From Saccharicrinis fermentans DSM 9555 = JCM 21142 (GTDB lineage Bacteria; Bacteroidota; Bacteroidia; Bacteroidales; Marinilabiliaceae): 64,000 nt of DNA. Position 1 is the stretch's first letter, and the number at the start of each line of letters is the position of its first letter. Of the stretch, positions 13,199-23,085 are shown piece after piece. Both the position numbers and the translations under genes were made by a program. The notes beneath the pieces were generated by a model. The model was not told the DNA's origin. It made no database searches and worked only from the letters and a program-made list of their open reading frames with translations. The stretch lies in NCBI RefSeq assembly GCF_000517085.1, contig NZ_KI912107.1, positions 1,426,398 to 1,490,397 of the forward strand, in the 5' to 3' direction.

Positions 13199-13549
13199 AT
13201 GAGAATGACATTAACAACATTTAAGCGTTTGTATAAGGATTACCAGGAATCAGATTTGAACATAAAAGATTTCTGTACCAACCAAGATTTGGCTCCTTCC
13301 ACTTTTTATTACTGGCGAAACAAATTGGAAGAGGCACTAGCACATGAGCCAGATAGCTTTGTTCCACTAGAATTTGACAGTAATCCGTTAGCGACGAACA
13401 ACCAATCGAGTCCATCTATCATCAAGAGTAAGCCTACTTTAAATAATGATGCTCCCATTGAATTCCTATTTCCCAATGGCACCAAGATGCTACTAAGAGA
13501 TAATATAAACACGCAAGTATTAAAAACAATTGTTCACTTATTTGATTAA
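13199..13549 (+). CDS. tnpA: IS66 accessory protein TnpA
   Basis: A 116-residue protein with an N-terminal helix-turn-helix typical of the first IS66 ORF (T-F-K-R-L-Y-K-D-Y ... S-T-F-Y-Y-W-R-N-K-L). It is required together with TnpB and TnpC for transposition in IS66 elements. It ends 5 bp before tnpB. It differs from the copy at 34079-34429 by Leu for Val in the I-E-F-x-F-P-N-G motif. Confidence 0.85.
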   Translation: MRMTLTTFKRLYKDYQESDLNIKDFCTNQDLAPSTFYYWRNKLEEALAHEPDSFVPLEFDSNPLATNNQSSPSIIKSKPTLNNDAPIEFLFPNGTKMLLRDNINTQVLKTIVHLFD

Positions 13550-13554
13550 GTCTG

Positions 13555-13890
13555 ATGTTTCATTTACACGATAAACTTAAATACTTTCTATATCCGGCAC
13601 CAGTGGATATGCGTAAAAGCTTTTACACACTCAGCGGCATTGTAAGCTCCTTGATGAAGCGTAATGTTCAGGACGGTGAAGTTTTTATATTTGTCAACCG
13701 TAGGCTGACCACCATGAAAATACTTCATCTAGAACACGGCGGGTTGGTAATTTACCATAAGAAGCTCGATAGTGGTGTTTTCAAACTTCCTGCATTTGAT
13801 GAAAGCCTCACATCTCACATTATAAGTTGGCACGATTTAATGTTGATTGTAAAGAATGTGAAGCCTAAAAAAAGGCTCTTAAAGAGGTGA
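13555..13890 (+). CDS. tnpB: IS66 Orf2-like accessory protein TnpB
   Basis: A 111-residue IS66 Orf2 protein with the family hallmark Y-P-A-P-V-D-M-R-K-S-F-Y-T-L near its N-terminus and V-F-I-F-V-N-R-R in the middle. It is identical in sequence to the product of the second copy. It lies between tnpA and tnpC and is presumably co-transcribed with them. Confidence 0.9.
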   Translation: MFHLHDKLKYFLYPAPVDMRKSFYTLSGIVSSLMKRNVQDGEVFIFVNRRLTTMKILHLEHGGLVIYHKKLDSGVFKLPAFDESLTSHIISWHDLMLIVKNVKPKKRLLKR

Positions 13891-13984
13891 CAAAAAGAAG
13901 CAATTTTTTAGGATTTTTAGATTGATAAAATTGGCTATAAGCCTTGATTTTACTATCTTTAAGCTCGTAATCAAGCAGTGATAA

Positions 13985-15664
13985 ATGAGCGATTTTTCAA
14001 GCAATAAAGATGTGTTAATACAGGAGCTTCTCCAGGAACGTGACGAGATGTTTCAGGAGCTTTCCCGCTTGCGAAAAAATGACAATAGGGTTCTGGACAC
14101 TTTGGAAGCTAAAAACAAAAAATTAGAGGCTATAGTCGCTAAAAAAGAGCAGCAAATTAAAAAGCTGATCGACCAGCTTGCTTGGTTTCGCCATAAGTTT
14201 TTTGGCAATTCTAGTGAAAAGCATATTGCCGAAGATCCCGATCAACGAAAGACCGATTGGGACGGACTGGAGGTCGTTGCAGAAGAGAAAGCTATCATTG
14301 AAAACGCAGAAAAAGAGCTTATCGAATATGAGCGCCGCAAGCCTGTAAAAAACAAGCAGAGGCCAGTTCGTCAACCACTTCCTGACCACCTTAGACGAGA
14401 GGTAGAAGTTATTGAACCGGAAGGTAAACAAGATAACTGGGTGCGTATTGGCGAAGAAGTAACAGAAATACTCGAACACAAGCCCGGAGAGGTATATGTA
14501 CGTCGTATAGAACGTCCTAAATATGCAGTAAAGCAAGAATCAGTATCACCGGATATTGCTACAGATCAAAACACCGAAGAAGCATCAGCTATCCGTATTG
14601 GTTCAATGCCATTATTGCCTTTGCCACGCAGCAATGCAGGGCCTTCTTTATTGAGCGAGCTGATGATGAATAAATATTATTTCCACCAGCCTTTTAATCG
14701 CCAAATGGCCATGTTCAAAATGATTGGTATAAAATTACCTGCATCCACCATTAATGGTTGGTTTCAAGGAAGCTGTGATTTACTAAGAGCTCTTTATGCA
14801 CGTTTAAAAGAAATCGTTCTAAAATCTGATTATATTCAGGTTGACGAAAGTACCATTCCTGTTATTAGCAACGAAAAGCACAAAGCACAAAAGGCTTATC
14901 TGTGGATGGTTCGATCAGTAATGAATAACTTGGTTTTCTTTCACTACGACAAAGGCTCCCGAGCACAAAAAGTGATACTTCCTTTATTAAAGGATTTTCA
15001 GGGAGCTCTTCAAACCGATGGATATCAGGCATATTCAATCTATGAGCAAAAGAAAGGTGTTTTGCTTCTGGGTTGTTGGGCTCATGCGCGCAGGAAATTC
15101 TCCGAAAGTCTAAAAGAAGACAAAACGGGGGCTGAATACGCATTGACACAAATTGCTAAAATCTATCAAGTTGAGCAAATGGCCACCGATCAGAACATGA
15201 ATTACAAGCAAAGAGCTGAACTACGAAAGCGCTTGGCTTATCCAATCATGCGTGCTTTTGAAAAATGGATCGAAGGCTATTACCCCAAAGCGCTACAAGG
15301 AGGAAAGATGAGTAAGGCGCTGGCTTATACATACAATCTTTTCTTACGTCTGTCTCGCTATCATCTTGATGGCCGATATCTGCCTGACAACAACGGAGCT
15401 GAAAATGCAATTAGGCCGGTAGCTGTTGGAAGAAAAGGCTATCTGTTTTGTGGCAACCATGATGCCGCAGAAAATGCAGCAATTATGTACTCACTACTGG
15501 GATGCTGCAAAGCCAGTGATGTAAATCCTCGCGAATGGCTTACAGATGTATTTTCTAAGATTGCGTTATACAACAGCAATTATGATTTAGACTTGGCTGA
15601 TCTTTTGCCGCACAATTGGAAAAAGTCTAATAGTTGTCAGAATATTCCAAAAAACACCCACTAA
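13985..15664 (+). CDS. tnpC: IS66 transposase TnpC (DDE)
   Basis: The 559-residue transposase of IS66. An N-terminal coiled coil (about 5-60) is followed by the IS66 signature region with a proline/basic linker, then the DDE catalytic domain: Y-I-Q-V-D-E-S-T, Q-T-D-G-Y-Q-A-Y and N-N-G-A-E-N-A-I-R-P carry the acidic residues. The length is slightly above the usual ~520. Compared with the copy at 31955-33643 it differs at only two internal residues, but it ends at N-T-H because of a TAA where the other copy reads on for three residues. Confidence 0.92.
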   Translation: MSDFSSNKDVLIQELLQERDEMFQELSRLRKNDNRVLDTLEAKNKKLEAIVAKKEQQIKKLIDQLAWFRHKFFGNSSEKHIAEDPDQRKTDWDGLEVVAEEKAIIENAEKELIEYERRKPVKNKQRPVRQPLPDHLRREVEVIEPEGKQDNWVRIGEEVTEILEHKPGEVYVRRIERPKYAVKQESVSPDIATDQNTEEASAIRIGSMPLLPLPRSNAGPSLLSELMMNKYYFHQPFNRQMAMFKMIGIKLPASTINGWFQGSCDLLRALYARLKEIVLKSDYIQVDESTIPVISNEKHKAQKAYLWMVRSVMNNLVFFHYDKGSRAQKVILPLLKDFQGALQTDGYQAYSIYEQKKGVLLLGCWAHARRKFSESLKEDKTGAEYALTQIAKIYQVEQMATDQNMNYKQRAELRKRLAYPIMRAFEKWIEGYYPKALQGGKMSKALAYTYNLFLRLSRYHLDGRYLPDNNGAENAIRPVAVGRKGYLFCGNHDAAENAAIMYSLLGCCKASDVNPREWLTDVFSKIALYNSNYDLDLADLLPHNWKKSNSCQNIPKNTH

Positions 15665-15813: not shown

Positions 15814-15850
15814 AAAAAGTGCATCGCCCAATGAACTGAATGGGCGGTGC
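15814..15850 (-). terminator. Rho-independent terminator of the glycyl-radical operon
   Basis: GCATCGCCCA and TGGGCGGTGC pair over ten positions (one G-U) around a ten-base loop. On the minus strand the stem is followed by a run of five T. It lies about 70 bp past the stop of the sugar symporter gene and closes the operon. Confidence 0.85.
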
Positions 15851-15919: not shown

Positions 15920-16924
15920 TTACAGAGCAATTATAACCAAGCCTATTATTAATAGACTAACCCCTCCGTACATGAGCATCATTGTATTTTTTTGTGTTCC
16001 TTTCCATTCTCCGGTAATAATTCCAGCCATATTTCCAACCAAGATTGATAATGTTTGCATGGTTGCCCAACCTACTGAGGCTCCCATTTTACCTAAACTA
16101 TTACTTCCCATGCCATAGAACATTATACTGAAATACCAGATAACACCTGCCAAAGCAGCAAGGGGTAAAAACTTTTTAAAATTGGTATCATAAAGTCTTA
16201 AGGAATTATTTTTCCGAAACAGAAATATACAATAAAAAGCATTCGCTATAAAACCACCTGTTAAGGCAATACTCCAAACTGGATTTGCCGAATTAAGAAC
16301 GGATGCCCCAAACTCAACTGCTTTTGCCTGTATTGGTTCTCCATATACAAATGCAAAATTTATCATCGGTCCAAATATGCCAGCTAACAAACAAACTATT
16401 ATACCTGTCACAAAGTTTTTTTTGCTTTTTCCTTCAAGATTACTACCCTCTACATTGTTCTTTTTGCTCCCTGCAACAGATACAATTACGATACCTATTA
16501 AAATAATAACAACTCCTGTAATTATCTTAAGTCCATCAGGAGTAAATAATTCATCGGGATCGCGGAGAACTATAGGCATAATTGTTCCAACTGAGTTTAT
16601 CAGTCCCAACATAATTGGAAAGCTCAATGAAACACCTAAAAGGTCTATTCCTTTCCCAAACATGATTGCTCCAATACCCCATATGATTCCAAATATTGAT
16701 ATTAATAGAAGATTTTCCGGTTCTGCTTTATAAACTCCAATTAAATCAGGAACACTTACAATAGCCATTACCCAGGGAGCTATTAATAAAGCAACAATAC
16801 TCCAAATTAACCAGTTGTTTTCCCATGTCCATTTATTATTAAATTTAAATGGGATGGCAAAAGTTCCTGCGCAAATGCCTGCAAGAATTACGAGTGGTAA
16901 ACCTGCTGATAAATTAGCTTCCAT
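15920..16924 (-). CDS. RhaT-family sugar:proton symporter
   Basis: A 334-residue inner-membrane protein with ten hydrophobic segments and the layout of the L-rhamnose/H+ symporter RhaT. It opens with an A-G-I-C-A-G-T-F-A-I-P-F-K motif and has internal W-G-I-G-A-I-M-F-G-K-G and G-A-S-V-G-W-A-T-M-Q. It imports a deoxyhexose or similar sugar. It is the last gene of the minus-strand operon with the cupin, glycyl radical enzyme and activase, and starts 4 bp after the cupin stop. It therefore probably brings in the substrate of that pathway. Rhamnose itself is possible, but no rhamnose isomerase, kinase or aldolase is nearby, so the true substrate is open. Confidence 0.85.
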   Translation of the reverse strand: MEANLSAGLPLVILAGICAGTFAIPFKFNNKWTWENNWLIWSIVALLIAPWVMAIVSVPDLIGVYKAEPENLLLISIFGIIWGIGAIMFGKGIDLLGVSLSFPIMLGLINSVGTIMPIVLRDPDELFTPDGLKIITGVVIILIGIVIVSVAGSKKNNVEGSNLEGKSKKNFVTGIIVCLLAGIFGPMINFAFVYGEPIQAKAVEFGASVLNSANPVWSIALTGGFIANAFYCIFLFRKNNSLRLYDTNFKKFLPLAALAGVIWYFSIMFYGMGSNSLGKMGASVGWATMQTLSILVGNMAGIITGEWKGTQKNTMMLMYGGVSLLIIGLVIIAL

Positions 16925-16928
16925 GTGA

Positions 16929-17357
16929 TTACTGATTTAAAATTTGATTAACTTGGCTTCTTAAGTCTGCCTTCTGATCTTCGGATAAATAGTAAAACCC
17001 ATAATCTCCATCCGGAAGAGGCAGATGAGTATAGTCATTTTCAACAATTATTACCTTTGAACCTTTTTGCATGGCTATTTTATGCCACACATTTCTTGGG
17101 ATATTATAGGTTATACCCTGTTTCATAACCTGTAAGTCATATTCAATACAATTATTAGAAACAGAAGCTGCAATTAACACAGCTTCTCCTTCAATCAATA
17201 TGAACACTTCATCAGTTTTGTAATGAACATCCAAACAAGAGATCGCTTCCAATTCTTCCTCAGCAGCATGATTTAATTGCGCAACCTGCCAGCCTGGTCT
17301 TATTAAAAAAGGATTATAACCATCCCCCTTATGTTGATATGATTCTATTAATGTCAT
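16929..17357 (-). CDS. Small cupin-domain protein of the glycyl-radical operon
   Basis: A 142-residue single-domain cupin. The conserved D-V-H-x-K-T-D-E-V-F-I-L-I-E-G-E stretch (about 44-59) and I-P-R-N-V-W-H-K-I (about 87-95) supply the His/Glu residues typical of metal-binding sugar cupins. It could isomerise, epimerise or mutarotate a sugar, or sequester a labile product. I cannot decide which. It lies 26 bp after the glycyl radical enzyme and 4 bp before the symporter, so it is almost surely part of the same pathway. Confidence 0.7.
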   Translation of the reverse strand: MTLIESYQHKGDGYNPFLIRPGWQVAQLNHAAEEELEAISCLDVHYKTDEVFILIEGEAVLIAASVSNNCIEYDLQVMKQGITYNIPRNVWHKIAMQKGSKVIIVENDYTHLPLPDGDYGFYYLSEDQKADLRSQVNQILNQ

Positions 17358-17383
17358 GTTTGTTTATTTTGTTTTTATTTACA

Positions 17384-19537
17384 TTAATCGTTCAAGATAC
17401 GATCAACAACCAATTGTCTAAATTCTTTTGAAAGCATTGAGAAATAAGCTGTGAAACCAGTAATTCTTACAACCAAATCAGGATATTTTGAGGGATCTTG
17501 GTGTGCCTCCAGCACTTTCTTTTGATCCATTATATTTACATTAATTAAAGTGCCACCTTGTTTAAAATGGACTTTAATTATTGAACCAATAATATCCATA
17601 TTATCTTCTTTGGCTAATCCCGGATCAAGTTCCCATTGCATAGGTGCAGTGTTACCATAACCTGGCTGTATGCTTGCTATAGCTGAAGCCATTGCTATAG
17701 ATGCTCCATCTGCAATAAAACCAGGATTTGGGTTAGCTCCATGCGATATTGGCAAACCACTTTTTCTGCCGTTAGGAGTCGCCTTAACTGTTTTCCCAAA
17801 ACCTACGGTATTTGCCCAGGAAAATAGTCCGGGAATAAATATGTGCCCATTCACTTTATCTCTTTGTTTAACTACTAATTGTGAGAATTTATCAGATATT
17901 TTTTTTGCCCACATATCACCTCTACTTCCTCCATGACCGTAACGGTCACTATTCTTCATCAATAATCTAATTCGTTCACCTTCTGTTCCTTCATAATCAT
18001 GCTGTAAATAATAGTTGATTTCGTTCCATCCTATTTTTTTCTCATCCTCAATTCGCTGTTGGATCGCTGCAAAAGAATCTGCAACAACAGCTAAACCTGC
18101 TCCATCAATAGCTAGATTATAATACATAGCTCCTCCATCACTTATGTCACATCCTTTTTCTAAAGGACCATATGATAATAGATTGAGCAGTAATTCTGGT
18201 TCATTATATTTTTGGTATTTCAGATGATGCCGAATGCCGTCTGCACTTGTTTGAACTGCAATGGAAAGGTGATGAGAAAAGGCTTTCCATAATTTTTCAG
18301 TCGTTGGATTATCTGTACTTATTATTTCATTAAAAGCAAGTTCAAAAACCTTAGCCATATTTATTTTAACCAAGTCATTCAGGGTATATTCCTTACCGGG
18401 TATTGACATCCAGTTGCATCCCAAAGCTATGCGTTCACGAGCCAACTCTTCGGAGTATCCATGCTTCATAAATCCCTTTATCAACCCTTTATCTCCTGAG
18501 AAACGTGGCCAGGCATTTTTGTTTTTTAACAAATACTTTAAGCCAGTCTTAAACAGCCTCTCATTCATATTATCATGTACCCGAATGGTAATATTTAATG
18601 GTGTATTGATTTTATCACCAGCCTCAAGAATTAGAAAAGAAATATCCGATGCTACATCTCCTCCTTTGCCATCAGGACCACCTAATTGCCAGTATATAGG
18701 ATCGTTAATCAAAAAGCATGCAAGGTAGTATACAGTTAAATCTTTATCTATTCTACCTTCCTTAAGATCCTTCTCATAGAATGGTCTTAATAATTCATCT
18801 ATTTGCCCACCCGCACCGTCGCGATTGTATGTGCGTGAGGCTAAATGAAACCAAATTATCCACTGACAAGCTTCCCGTAGTGTTTGTGGAGCCTTTGAAA
18901 CGATATTCCGATTCACCTCCGCCATTTCGATTAAATTGGTTTTTAGTTCCTCATTATCTTCCTTGTCAATCATGGACTCTATCTCTTCAATATGTCTTTT
19001 AATCCAATTTTGTACACTTTTTACAGCTCGTCGGTGTATCTCGTAGAATTGCTGTTGCTCTTTATGCGTATTTATTTTCTTGTATTTCTCAATCTTAGAT
19101 AAGATTCCTCCCCATCCCAATTCAATTCCCAGCTTATAATCAGGAGCGAAGTGAGCATCATCGCCTATGCCTGATATAATATCATATTTCTTTTGATTTT
19201 CGATTAGATGATCATATGGATAATCTGGATTCCACTTGTTGGGTCGCATTTTTGACATAAAATACATCCAACGACCAGCAAATGCATCATTGGCATCTAC
19301 GTAAACAGGATGATTGTCTATTAAATCACAAAAATTATCAGTCCATCCTTGATATCCATAAAATGAACCATCCGGATGATTTGAGATTATTTTCCAACCA
19401 TCTTTTGGAGGTACAATTCTTCCGTAATCATCTTCGTCTAACAGTCCCTCAATTGCTATCTTCTCTTTAGTTTGCAATAATTTGCGCCCTCTTAAAGCAT
19501 CTGTTCTGGTTTTATATCTAAAACTGTTTTCTTTCAT
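17384..19537 (-). CDS. Glycyl radical enzyme with atypical active site (unknown reaction)
   Basis: A 717-residue member of the pyruvate formate-lyase/glycyl radical superfamily. The C-terminal radical loop reads V-R-I-T-G-F-T-A-Y-F with the radical glycine at 694, and the C-terminal block G-G-T-L-I-N-V-N-I-M-D is typical. The thiyl cysteine is Cys374 in A-L-G-C-N-W-M-S-I-P-G. Characterised eliminases (glycerol/propanediol dehydratase, choline and isethionate lyases, hydroxyproline dehydratase) have G-C-V-E, with Glu two residues after Cys as base; here that position is Trp. It also lacks the Cys-Cys pair of pyruvate formate-lyase. So it is a real glycyl radical enzyme but probably a different reaction. 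Its activase is encoded 2 bp upstream, and a sugar symporter and cupin follow. A sugar or sugar-acid substrate is inferred. Confidence 0.88.
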   Translation of the reverse strand: MKENSFRYKTRTDALRGRKLLQTKEKIAIEGLLDEDDYGRIVPPKDGWKIISNHPDGSFYGYQGWTDNFCDLIDNHPVYVDANDAFAGRWMYFMSKMRPNKWNPDYPYDHLIENQKKYDIISGIGDDAHFAPDYKLGIELGWGGILSKIEKYKKINTHKEQQQFYEIHRRAVKSVQNWIKRHIEEIESMIDKEDNEELKTNLIEMAEVNRNIVSKAPQTLREACQWIIWFHLASRTYNRDGAGGQIDELLRPFYEKDLKEGRIDKDLTVYYLACFLINDPIYWQLGGPDGKGGDVASDISFLILEAGDKINTPLNITIRVHDNMNERLFKTGLKYLLKNKNAWPRFSGDKGLIKGFMKHGYSEELARERIALGCNWMSIPGKEYTLNDLVKINMAKVFELAFNEIISTDNPTTEKLWKAFSHHLSIAVQTSADGIRHHLKYQKYNEPELLLNLLSYGPLEKGCDISDGGAMYYNLAIDGAGLAVVADSFAAIQQRIEDEKKIGWNEINYYLQHDYEGTEGERIRLLMKNSDRYGHGGSRGDMWAKKISDKFSQLVVKQRDKVNGHIFIPGLFSWANTVGFGKTVKATPNGRKSGLPISHGANPNPGFIADGASIAMASAIASIQPGYGNTAPMQWELDPGLAKEDNMDIIGSIIKVHFKQGGTLINVNIMDQKKVLEAHQDPSKYPDLVVRITGFTAYFSMLSKEFRQLVVDRILND

Positions 19538-19539
19538 AA

Positions 19540-20424
19540 TTATACATTAACTATTCTGTTTTTAACTAATTCAAGCTCTTTAAAATTGCTTTTGGGTATT
19601 TCTTTTACGCCTTCCATTGGGTTATTAATCCCCAAGTTTTTATATTTTGTTGCTCCTAAAGGATGATAAGGAAGTAAGGTGTAGGATTTTGCATTATTTA
19701 GGGAGGATACAAACTGAGCCATCTTTTCAATCATTTCATGTGAGTCATTTACCCCAGGAATGACAGGAGTTCTTAATTCATAGGGTATTCCTGTTTGATC
19801 TAAATGAATAATATTTTCTATAATCCTTGAATTCTTGAGTCCGGTCCATATCTTATGAATATCGGAATAAAATAATTTAAAATCTGCCATTACATAATCG
19901 AGATTAGGAAGGAGTTCTTTATATAAATCCCATCTATAACTGAGGTTTGTTTCCATAGCAGTGTGGATACCTTTTTGTTTTAAATGAACCAATATTTCTT
20001 TTACAAAATCAAATTGGAACAGTGGTTCTCCTCCAGATAGCGTAATTCCTCCTCCTGACTCCTCAAAATATGGAATGTCAATTGCTATTTCCTTATATAA
20101 TTCTTCAGAGGAAACCGTTCTACCAATTTGATGTAGAGCTTCTGAATAACACACTTCTATGCAAGCAAAACAATTGTTACATTTTGATTTATCAAAAGCA
20201 ATTTTGTTGTTAACAACCTTTAATGCTCCTGTTTTACACTCACTGATGCATGCCTGACAGTTAGTGCACTTATCCGATACCCACTCTAGCTCACACTTCG
20301 AACTAAACGTTTCTGGATTATGGCACCACTTACATCGCATATTGCAACCCTTTAAAAAAATTGTTGATCGAATTCCAGGACCATCATGAATTGACATCCT
20401 CTGTATATGAGTAATTATTCCCAT
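19540..20424 (-). CDS. Glycyl-radical enzyme activating enzyme (radical SAM)
   Basis: A radical SAM activase that abstracts hydrogen from Gly694 of its partner enzyme. From the start at 20424 it has 294 residues. The cluster motif C-N-M-R-C-K-W-C falls at Cys27/31/34, close to 29/33/36 in PFL activase. An insert with two ferredoxin-like 4Fe-4S motifs (C-T-N-C-Q-A-C, C-N-N-C-F-A-C) marks the dehydratase/lyase activase class. S-G-G-E-P is present. The frame is open to 20490, but a TACATTTG promoter element at 20451-20458 lies inside that extension, favouring 20424. The stop is 2 bp before the glycyl radical enzyme start, so the two are translationally linked. Confidence 0.92.
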   Translation of the reverse strand: MGIITHIQRMSIHDGPGIRSTIFLKGCNMRCKWCHNPETFSSKCELEWVSDKCTNCQACISECKTGALKVVNNKIAFDKSKCNNCFACIEVCYSEALHQIGRTVSSEELYKEIAIDIPYFEESGGGITLSGGEPLFQFDFVKEILVHLKQKGIHTAMETNLSYRWDLYKELLPNLDYVMADFKLFYSDIHKIWTGLKNSRIIENIIHLDQTGIPYELRTPVIPGVNDSHEMIEKMAQFVSSLNNAKSYTLLPYHPLGATKYKNLGINNPMEGVKEIPKSNFKELELVKNRIVNV

Positions 20425-20443
20425 CTCAATACTTTGATTTTGA

Positions 20444-20458
20444 TACATTACAAATGTA
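20444..20458 (-). promoter_or_regulatory. Promoter -7 element inside a palindrome before the activase
   Basis: TACATTACAAATGTA is an inverted repeat (6-bp arms, 3-bp spacer). On the minus strand it contains TACATTTG, a perfect match to the Bacteroidota -7 box TAnnTTTG. No TTG lies at the ideal 19-21-bp spacing, which suggests a regulated promoter. It would start transcription about 20 bp before ATG 20424. Confidence 0.5.
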
Positions 20459-20568
20459 TAATAGACTGATGAGAGAATAAAATAAGACAATACTTCCTGA
20501 AGTGCTATTGATTGCCCTAAAACGACATGCAGTTAACGGATATTAAGAAATATTAGGAAATGAATAGG

Positions 20569-21408
20569 CTAAAATACTTTGTAGTTTTTTTCTCTGTATT
20601 CTAATGGTGTTATGCCAAATTTCGATTTAAATAACCTGTGAAAATAGCTAACTGAAGAAAATCCACATTCTGAAGAAATGATTTTAATGGGAGTATTTGT
20701 ATATACTAGTTGGCGGGATGCAAATTCTAGTCGGATATTATTTATGGTTTCTGTAACAGTTTGATTTAAACACGATTTTATAACACGATTGACATGATCA
20801 GAAGATTTTCCAGTTAAAGAAACAAAGCCTGCAACTCCGGAATTAAAGTGAACAGGTGTATTAAATACTTTTAAAGCATATGAAAGCCATTGGGGTATAT
20901 TATTTACATTACCTTTAATTAGCAACATTTCAAATATATGCAACATTATATGGTCAAACTGAAGGTATTTTCTTTCACTAACCATAAACTTATCTACTAC
21001 AATTGTTAGGTCATTTAATTGATTTTTTTCTAATGTACAATAAAAAGGCAATTCTGATTTCGCCCAGAAAAAGGATGAACTATCACTGAAATAACGCTCC
21101 TTGAAACGGATAAGCTCCTGATTTTGAAAAGCAATATTTGTGATCACAAGACCTTTTTCTCTTGGATGCATTCTAAAAGTATGCTCATCTTCAGGTCTAA
21201 TCATCCAGAATGAACCCGGCTGTATCTCAATCTCCCTTCCGTTAATCAAATGAAATCCATGACCTTCCTTTACCCAAAATATCTCATGATAATCATGATA
21301 GTGTTTTCTTAAATCATGTGCAGATGTGATGGTTGTCCGAGCTAAATGAAATACCTCTGTTGAACTAATAAAATTATCTAAACACAATTGAATGCACGTA
21401 TTATTCAT
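20569..21408 (-). CDS. AraC-family regulator with N-terminal cupin
   Basis: A 279-residue transcription regulator. An N-terminal cupin sensor (H-Y-H-D-Y-H-E-I-F-W, W-M-I-R-P-E-D-E-H) is followed by a C-terminal pair of helix-turn-helix motifs (about 185-279) ending with the AraC signature F-H-R-L-F-K-S-K-F-G-I-T-P-L-E-Y-R. The arrangement is like RhaS/RhaR, which sense sugars. It lies 78-144 bp upstream of the activase on the same strand and is divergent from the pectate lyase gene, so it is the natural candidate to control both. The inducer is unknown but likely the imported sugar. Confidence 0.88.
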   Translation of the reverse strand: MNNTCIQLCLDNFISSTEVFHLARTTITSAHDLRKHYHDYHEIFWVKEGHGFHLINGREIEIQPGSFWMIRPEDEHTFRMHPREKGLVITNIAFQNQELIRFKERYFSDSSSFFWAKSELPFYCTLEKNQLNDLTIVVDKFMVSERKYLQFDHIMLHIFEMLLIKGNVNNIPQWLSYALKVFNTPVHFNSGVAGFVSLTGKSSDHVNRVIKSCLNQTVTETINNIRLEFASRQLVYTNTPIKIISSECGFSSVSYFHRLFKSKFGITPLEYREKNYKVF

Positions 21409-21684: not shown

Positions 21685-23085
21685 ATGAAAAAAATAGCAG
21701 TTATTATATTACTCATCATTAATATTAGTGGTTTTGCTCAACAGTTAGCTTTTCCAACAGCTGAAGGGTATGGGAAATATGCAAAAGGAGGAAGAGGTGG
21801 TGTTGTTTATGAAGTGACTAATCTAAACGATAGTGGAGAAGGTAGTTTGAGGGCAGCAGTAGAAGCCTCTGAACCAAGAACTGTTGTCTTTAGAATATCT
21901 GGTAATATTGATCTAAAAAAACCTATTGAAATTACAAAACCATATATTACCATCGCTGGACAAACGGCTCCGGGTGAGGGGGTCTGTTTAAAAAACTACC
22001 CTTTGAATATTCGTGCGGATCATGTTATTATAAGATATATTAGGGTAAGGATAGGGGATGTGTCTAAAAACGACTATGATGCTGTTGGAAGTCGTTTTAC
22101 AAAACATATTATATTGGATCATGTTTCAGCTAGTTGGAGTGTGGATGAATGTATGTCTATTTATCATTGCGATAGTATTACTGTACAGTGGTGTATCATA
22201 TCTGAGAGTATGAGTCAATCGAATCATATCAAAGGTTCACATGGTTATGGTGGTATTTGGGGTAGTAATTATGGAACGTATCATCACAATCTGTTAGCGC
22301 ATCATTCAAGTCGAAATCCTAGAATGGCTTCTGGTACAGGGTATACTGATTATCGTAACAATGTTATTTTCAATTGGGGTTACAATAGTTGTTATGGTGG
22401 GGAAGCATTTCAAAAAGATAGTGAGGATTTTAATTTTTCTAAAATTAACATGGTGGCTAATTATTATAAGCCGGGACCGGCAACAGAACCAGGAAAGGTT
22501 TCTTTCCGAATTGCAAACCCTTCATTTAGAAATGAAACTGATGATTTTGGCAAATGGTATATAGCAGATAATGTTGTGGTGGGCAATGAGGAGGTTAGTA
22601 AAGACAACTGGAATGGAGGGGTACAGACAAAAATAGCATTGGATAAAATTAAACTTGAGCGTGCTTGGCCTTCGATGCCTATACGTCAACAAACAGCAGA
22701 AGAGTCTTATGAGTTAGTGCTTAAAAGTGTAGGTGCGGTATTGCCCAAACGTGATGCGATAGATTCTCGAATTATTGAAGAAGTAAAAGGAGGATATGCT
22801 AGTTATGAGGGTGAAAGTTACAAAAAGTCACATCGTGTCACTGATATTACAGTTCCTTGTGGTATTATTGATACGCAGAATGATGTGGGTGGATGGCCGA
22901 TGCTAAAAAGTTTGCCTGCTCCCAAAGATTCAGACCATGATGGTATGCCAGATGAATGGGAAGTTAAAAATAATCTAGATAAAACCAATTCCGAGGATAG
23001 AAACGTCATTGCTTCTGATGGATATACAATGTTAGAGAGATACTTAAATTCAGAAAATGCATTAAAATGCTCTGTTAAGTATTAA
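21685..23085 (+). CDS. Pectate lyase-like polysaccharide lyase (PL1-type)
   Basis: A 466-residue secreted right-handed beta-helix lyase that should cleave polygalacturonate by beta-elimination. It has a type I signal peptide (about 1-18, ending F-A-Q). G-G-R-G-G-V-V-Y-E-V-T-N-L-N-D-S-G-x-G-S-L-R and the helix turns with I-L-D-H-V-S-A-S-W-S-x-D-E are typical of Bacteroidota PL1 lyases. The basic segment H-S-S-R-N-P-R-M-A-S-G would hold the catalytic Arg. A D-S-D-H-D-G-M-P-D-E-W-E calcium loop lies near the C-terminus (about 412-423). It is divergent from the AraC gene of the glycyl-radical operon. No T9SS tail is seen. Confidence 0.85.
   Translation: MKKIAVIILLIINISGFAQQLAFPTAEGYGKYAKGGRGGVVYEVTNLNDSGEGSLRAAVEASEPRTVVFRISGNIDLKKPIEITKPYITIAGQTAPGEGVCLKNYPLNIRADHVIIRYIRVRIGDVSKNDYDAVGSRFTKHIILDHVSASWSVDECMSIYHCDSITVQWCIISESMSQSNHIKGSHGYGGIWGSNYGTYHHNLLAHHSSRNPRMASGTGYTDYRNNVIFNWGYNSCYGGEAFQKDSEDFNFSKINMVANYYKPGPATEPGKVSFRIANPSFRNETDDFGKWYIADNVVVGNEEVSKDNWNGGVQTKIALDKIKLERAWPSMPIRQQTAEESYELVLKSVGAVLPKRDAIDSRIIEEVKGGYASYEGESYKKSHRVTDITVPCGIIDTQNDVGGWPMLKSLPAPKDSDHDGMPDEWEVKNNLDKTNSEDRNVIASDGYTMLERYLNSENALKCSVKY

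Follow-up and report, generated by a model that had tools for sequence, protein, structure and literature searches.

The window analysed here is a 64,000-nucleotide stretch of Saccharicrinis fermentans DSM 9555 = JCM 21142 (contig NZ_KI912107.1, positions 1,426,398 to 1,490,397), and it contains a minus-strand operon built around an oxygen-sensitive glycyl radical enzyme (GRE) with an unusual active site. In enzymes of this kind an activase makes the glycine radical, a cysteine becomes the thiyl, and the thiyl abstracts a hydrogen from the substrate. Some of the hardest reactions of anaerobic metabolism depend on them, and earlier finds of new active-site types have led to new reactions. The operon starts with an AraC-family regulator having an N-terminal cupin-like sensor (20569..21408; Pfam HTH_18 and AraC_binding), followed after 78 bp by a radical SAM GRE activase with ferredoxin-type domains (19540..20490; TIGR02494, 320.7 bits against a cut-off of 174.35). 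The GRE itself, of 717 amino acids (17384..19537), matches the PFL-like and Gly_radical families (PF02901, 335.5 bits; PF01228, 45.6 bits), and is followed by a small cupin without a Pfam match (16929..17357) and by a RhaT-type sugar-proton symporter (15920..16924; PF06379, 133.6 bits). Gaps of 2 bp (activase-GRE), 26 bp (GRE-cupin) and 4 bp (cupin-RhaT) make this the tightly packed gene set that an initial annotation of the DNA had described. The annotated TTG probably sets the activase start too far upstream: relatives begin at a methionine matching approximately position 20424, where an ATG is probably the true start.

The initial annotation also had the operon end in a terminator. At 15821..15850 on the minus strand, a hairpin (one mismatch, 10-nucleotide loop) is followed by the T-rich tail ACTTTTTATT; the 71-nucleotide stretch folded gave z = -3.7. 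With hairpin and tail present a probable intrinsic terminator is plausible, though a scan of the operon 3' end for a consensus terminator found no match.

Active site of the glycyl radical enzyme

Both the PFL-like and the Gly_radical domain score above their curated cut-offs, and the two catalytic residues of the superfamily stand at their aligned places: radical Gly694 (codon 17456..17458) within VVRITGFTAYFS, and thiyl Cys374 within LGCNWMS. The codons for Cys374, Asn375 and Trp376 occupy 18410..18418, and tryptophan thus takes the place of the eliminase glutamate two residues after the cysteine. The site reads GCNW, without the adjacent Cys-Cys pair. These features of the initial annotation were all reproduced, and they extend well beyond one protein. 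Cys374, Asn375, Trp376, Gly694, His129, Tyr282 and Asp388 are invariant in 28 of 28 aligned GREs of the C-N-W (CNW) type, as is the block from Ser234 to Gln245 (SRTYNRDGAGGQ); the alignment left out L012, L013 and L017 (loci are cited by their L numbers) and seven loci whose frames are cut or unlisted (L031, L041, L045, L046, L052, L053, L054).

Among 92 GREs that include the site, the residue two after the cysteine is Trp in 40 (37 CNW and 3 with C-Q-W, or CQW), Glu in 39, Ser in 12 and Val in 1, a count in which CNW rows, gathered by homology, are over-represented and which is no survey of nature; one further row (L053) ends before the site. All 37 CNW rows therefore differ from the eliminases at this position. 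Profile alignment to glycerol dehydratase (GD) sets Trp376 at the glutamate position and His129 at the histidine position, the GD residues concerned being H164, H281/S282 and D447. Opposite H281/S282 the window GRE has a shorter segment, YNRDGAGGQID, and where exactly the gap falls is uncertain. PMC7077986 describes CXE as a conserved motif of the GRE eliminases whose Glu is widely held to act as catalytic base, and reports H160 and D278 of HypD to be essential. GRE homologues having Ala, Ser or Thr for the radical glycine, as described in PMC11528403, are of another type, as the CNW enzymes keep the Gly.

A separate branch of the superfamily

None of the NCBIfam GRE models listed reaches its cut-off with the window GRE. 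The best is TIGR01774 (266.5 of 678.2 bits), and the HypD, CutC and pyruvate formate-lyase (PFL; TIGR01255) models gave 182.7 of 1100, 154.5 of 1050 and 83.9 of 994.2 bits; the equivalog cut-offs of HypD, CutC, HpsG/HpfG, HPAD and IAD were all missed, and the isethionate lyase model was not among the NCBIfam matches. In two trees, each with 15 CNW rows, these enzymes formed a single clade, with SH-aLRT 100 each time, distinct from the PFL, HypD, CutC, propanediol dehydratase (PD), YbiW and PflD rows. Its nearest neighbor varies with sampling. In the first tree, of 50 rows, CNW joins CQW at SH-aLRT 99; in the tree without CQW and the long row L081, CNW stands beside PFL at a support of 78, and both placements carry a long-branch warning. 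A starred branch (96) in the second tree puts CNW, PFL, L011 and L014 on one side and the remaining 23 rows on the other. The trees had no rows of isethionate lyase, HPAD, IAD or X-succinate synthases, and scores of the window GRE to solved structures of these four were lower than those to PflD or GD. Placement in a named subfamily, which would have spoken against the initial annotation, was accordingly rejected for the subfamilies tested: the CNW enzymes are a separate GRE branch, previously unnamed, real and well conserved, that lies outside every curated family tested.

As for the literature, no CNW GRE or mannose GRE was described among the matches listed, in a search whose scope lay outside most subscription journals, nor in the accessible parts of PMC11574389, PMC11528403, PMC6453916, PMC7077986 and PMC12441222. 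Of the rows grouped with PFL in the second tree, L014 (7482-10857) comes from Moraxella osloensis, where this GRE and its activase are flanked by Tn3 transposases on a mobilizable plasmid of 36 kb.

Distribution

Among 393 genomes of the order, four had a GRE match of at least 64% identity, as did 1 of 395 genomes in a phylum sample and 1 of 9 genomes in the genus; the genome of S. fermentans is among the four and is the only one in the other two samples. It has two PF02901 genes, the window GRE and an ordinary PFL with C-C-V-S (L001). Plasmid records of Flammeovirga kamogawensis and Persicobacter psychrovividus carry a CNW GRE at approximately 69% identity. Scanning genome_contigs, which is described as covering 84,980 species, yielded 34 loci at 62-72% identity over the matched GRE, all titled as Bacteroidota bar one metagenome-assembled genome (MAG) titled Chlorobiota; record titles of the clade include marine genera as well as rumen and gut Bacteroidota. 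The scan used two patterns, and so was not exhaustive, namely the peptides ACQWIIW and NTAPMQW, neither of which contains the cysteine site. Since the 34 loci share the GRE, and the C-N-W site is invariant in the alignment yet lies outside the search peptides, the motif is not a product of chance. Two of the loci, L024 and L030, are the same contigs as genomes G749 and G778.

Searches of viral_contigs with a single protein and with an alignment found no relative, and viral carriage of the operon was rejected on that basis. The scattered spread fits an accessory gene set. Genes of an IS66-type insertion element, recognized by eye, lie directly downstream of the operon and convergent to it (13199-15664); they agree with this and prove nothing.

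Gene company and the mannosidase linkage

Neighboring genes were compared across 38 loci (the window, L012, L013, L017 and L021-L054) from 37 genomes, L052 and L053 being one MAG; L015 and L016 were dropped because their DNA is shared with L024 and L030. Counts cover homologues of already seen clusters within 9 kb of the GRE, so that other mannosidases or carriers may be missed, and some contigs are short. The activase is present in 33 of 38, and the remaining five contigs start within the GRE or, in L026, shortly ahead of it. The cupin is near the GRE in 29, and two of the nine loci without it (L046, L053) end inside the GRE. An AraC gene was found in 19 and RhaT in only 15, so the conserved linkage anticipated by the initial annotation holds for activase and cupin and much less for the transporter. 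Loci without RhaT have MFS carriers (e.g., L027, L029, L034, L038, L048, L050) or SSS carriers (e.g., L013, L025).

The main clue, missed in the initial annotation, is linkage to alpha-mannosidases. GH47 genes occur in 10 and GH92 genes in 11 of the 38 loci, never both in one locus and never GH47 together with RhaT, and 21 of 38 have an alpha-mannosidase of one or the other family no farther than 2 kb from the GRE. The mannosidases compared, one GH47 (L047) and two GH92 (L036), are closest to solved alpha-1,2-mannosidases. Background density was evaluated over 24 genome handles, of which G778 and G788 are one MAG; L035 was left out, as were L012, L013, L021, L024 (G749), L026, L031-L033, L041, L044-L046 and L052-L054. 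Full-length GH47 was found in 9 of the 24, one copy each (a tenth match was weak and partial); in 8 of these 9 it sits no more than 2 kb from the GRE, the window's own genome being the exception. For GH92 there were 260 matches in approximately 105 Mb, or one per 400 kb, which predicts by chance about 0.4 of 38 loci with GH92 within 2 kb of the GRE versus 11 observed; the figure is rough, and too low for GH92-dense genomes because there the genes cluster and their density is several times higher. The association does not run in the other direction. Across the order, full-length GH47 is present in 25 of 393 genomes, 23 of which are not among the four with a CNW GRE; GH47 thus does not predict the GRE, and its use as a general marker was rejected.

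In four loci the RhaT gene runs in one open frame into a GH92 N-terminal domain (L039, 12549-17486; L041, 12535-17493; L045, 2357-4324; L052, 1613-3925), and in L040 the frame continues into GH92 up to the contig end (12539-13609, cut). Pfam confirmed RhaT plus GH92 in L039, L045 and L052, with GH28 following in L039. The fusions come from MAGs of Bacteroidales, some of which have titles that name water buffalo, and join an inner-membrane carrier to a glycosidase. The unfused GH92 of L051 starts with what appears by eye to be a lipoprotein-like signal, which the fused form does not have. No other single observation hints as strongly as this joining of a carrier to an exo-mannosidase that what is imported is the mannosidase product. 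Because the recurrent degradative neighbors are alpha-mannosidases, while the one annotated rhamnosidase has a homologue only in its own locus among the 38, the likelier substrate is mannose or a similar sugar. The core of the initial annotation stands, and its guess of a rhamnose- or galacturonate-type substrate, weakened by these counts, probably has to move to alpha-mannoside sugars.

Several observations weigh against a mannose substrate. The window operon has no mannosidase beside it, and the only GH47 of its genome, with at least 6 of 8 GH92 places, lies approximately 4 Mb away; 17 of 38 loci have neither GH47 nor GH92 within 9 kb; and GH92 is dense in some genomes (up to 21 in 2.1 Mb) and clusters in polysaccharide loci. 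In L030 the one annotated ROK-family kinase, with homologues in no other of the 38 loci, lies about 6 kb from the GRE and is followed by an open reading frame (ORF) that by eye resembles phosphomannose isomerase, without a Pfam match. The pair points to mannose, but via the ordinary phosphorylated route; that mannose has such a route means that a radical one needs a reason. Other neighbors direct attention to rhamnose or pectin fragments, the mannosidase link then being a by-product of shared polysaccharide loci: RhaT belongs to the L-rhamnose family, GH28 genes lie near five loci (L036, L039, L041, L050, L051), a GH78 rhamnosidase is in L050, and a pectate-lyase-like gene (21685-23085; PelZ model 125.5 of 840 bits, no Pfam match) is divergent from the window AraC gene. 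A homologue of the GH78, however, was found only in its own locus among the 38, and the proximity of GH47 to the GRE in 8 of 9 genomes and the direct fusion of carrier to GH92 also speak against this. A rhamnose or pectin-fragment enzyme is regarded as very unlikely.

The cupin

Three cupin residues, His45, Glu50 and His92, are invariant in a six-row alignment and are likely metal ligands, judged by the metal-site motif of cupins. Of 149 genomes of the order that were searched, two have the protein (E 1e-8), both known holders of the GRE. Its best solved profile match is 3d0j, the uncharacterised CA_C3497 from Clostridium (E 1e-25). A distant Photobacterium relative (36%) follows ABC-transporter genes and a large unannotated ORF, as seen by eye, and no function was gained from it.

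The CQW sister type

GREs with G-C-Q-W occur in three genomes of the order (L018, 486-2756; L019, 9360-11633; L020, 8674-10947), at 25-26% identity to the window GRE and with Lys for Arg before the radical glycine. Alpha-L-fucosidase genes lie near two of the three, the third (L019) having a GH5-type gene and a 2-epimerase-family gene, and MFS carriers are near all three (in L019 by eye). A search of 395 genomes of the phylum with one CQW GRE gave 15 matches at 26-32% identity, one being the window GRE; the other 14, eight new rows and six already in the set (L059, L062, L064, L068, L070, L083), all have Glu, and no further CQW GRE was found there. This company suggests, and only suggests, that C-x-W goes with free monosaccharides. 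Separately, a Parabacteroides distasonis GRE with C-T-E (L090, 3581-5860), possibly another sugar GRE, is beside a ROK kinase, an N-acetylmannosamine-6-phosphate 2-epimerase and a sugar O-acetyltransferase.

Proposed function

Together, these findings led to a proposal, tentative and with somewhat less than an even chance of being right as a whole, that the operon is a catabolic cassette in which a GRE of the separate branch dehydrates unphosphorylated D-mannose or a close sugar. We infer the class of substrate more firmly than the chemistry. Alpha-mannosidases outside the cytoplasm, encoded elsewhere in this genome and next door in others, would release the sugar, the RhaT-type carrier would import it by proton symport, and the AraC protein would control the operon. 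Under anoxia the activase would place the radical on Gly694, from which it would pass to Cys374, and the thiyl would take a hydrogen from the sugar ring. Trp376 may stack on the ring where eliminases hold the catalytic Glu, its place in the substrate pocket resting on alignment, a further point to be set against the proposal; His129, Arg239, Asp240 and Asp388 could supply hydrogen bonds and acid-base steps. The best guess of the outcome is loss of water from a vicinal ring diol to give a deoxy-keto sugar or a deoxy-aldonolactone, and the putative metal cupin, perhaps an isomerase or a mutarotase, may open, isomerise or otherwise handle substrate or product.

The absence of the CXE Glu in 28 of 28 aligned enzymes could also mean that nothing is eliminated, Trp replacing Glu for that reason in a radical epimerase or isomerase that returns the C2 hydrogen of mannose on the other face or on a neighboring carbon, yielding glucose or fructose. 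No recurring kinase step is seen (the annotated kinase is in 1 of 38 loci, not every neighbor being annotated), and the 2-epimerase-family gene of L019 would agree. Such an enzyme would require a second hydrogen donor, the same isomerisation can be accomplished without radicals, and we know of no GRE epimerase; this outcome is considered unlikely.

Genes resembling MtaA/CmuA methyltransferases lie near 3 of 38 loci (L034, 12587-13618; L047, 8916-9944; L050, from 3758), those of L034 and L047 scoring below NCBIfam cut-offs when scanned, and a sulfatase gene is in the Flammeovirga locus. They would suit an eliminase acting on a modified mannose (O-methyl, sulfate, anhydro or 6-deoxy) with release of the substituent, and there is a parallel in the GREs YbiW and PflD, which according to PMC12441222 open 1,5-anhydro sugar phosphates, the phosphorylated substrate being delivered by the phosphotransferase system (PTS). 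Such neighbors are sparse, however, and YbiW and PflD are C-I-E and C-V-E enzymes of phosphorylated substrates, with no PTS genes in the window operon to match. Elimination from a modified sugar is thus rather improbable.

Returning to dehydration of free mannose, the CQW enzymes permit a wider and more doubtful proposal, one that we would sooner expect to fail than to hold: C-x-W may mark a whole GRE branch acting on free unphosphorylated hexoses, CNW on mannose and CQW on fucose or related sugars, with Trp a sugar-stacking platform that replaces the acid-base Glu. The cassette would then be a phosphate-free anaerobic entry for mannose, its tightest form uniting carrier and periplasmic mannosidase in a single polypeptide. 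Throughout the clade the active-site change is fixed, and gene company names a substrate class; if a GRE does act on free mannose, the sugar metabolism of host-associated and environmental polysaccharide degraders would include a radical, kinase-free step.

Comparison with known systems

With PFL the CNW enzymes share the PFL-like and glycine radical domains, and the Cys pair is missing. With the GRE eliminases (glycerol and propanediol dehydratase, CutC, HypD, isethionate lyase) they share the PFL-like domain and the Gly and Cys loops, and likeness to GD and HypD extends to His129, aligned to GD H164 and HypD H160, and to Asp388, aligned to GD D447; the differences are CNW for CXE and the shortened segment opposite GD H281/S282. 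The L-rhamnose/proton symporter RhaT and the window carrier share a Pfam family, with its cut-off passed, but the window carrier, at 352.8 bits, is below the cut-off of 369 for the equivalog NF010022, and five relatives from CNW loci differ in being fused to an alpha-mannosidase. PflD and YbiW of E. coli are each a GRE with an activase and a sugar-derived substrate, and PflD is the second-best solved structure for the window GRE by phmmer. Membership with them was rejected, since both have CxE and lie outside the CNW clade. The pflD gene lies among sugar transport genes of the PTS. RhaT carriers are proton symporters, and the RhaT-type carrier of the window operon, unlike the PTS that feeds YbiW and PflD, would deliver its sugar unphosphorylated.

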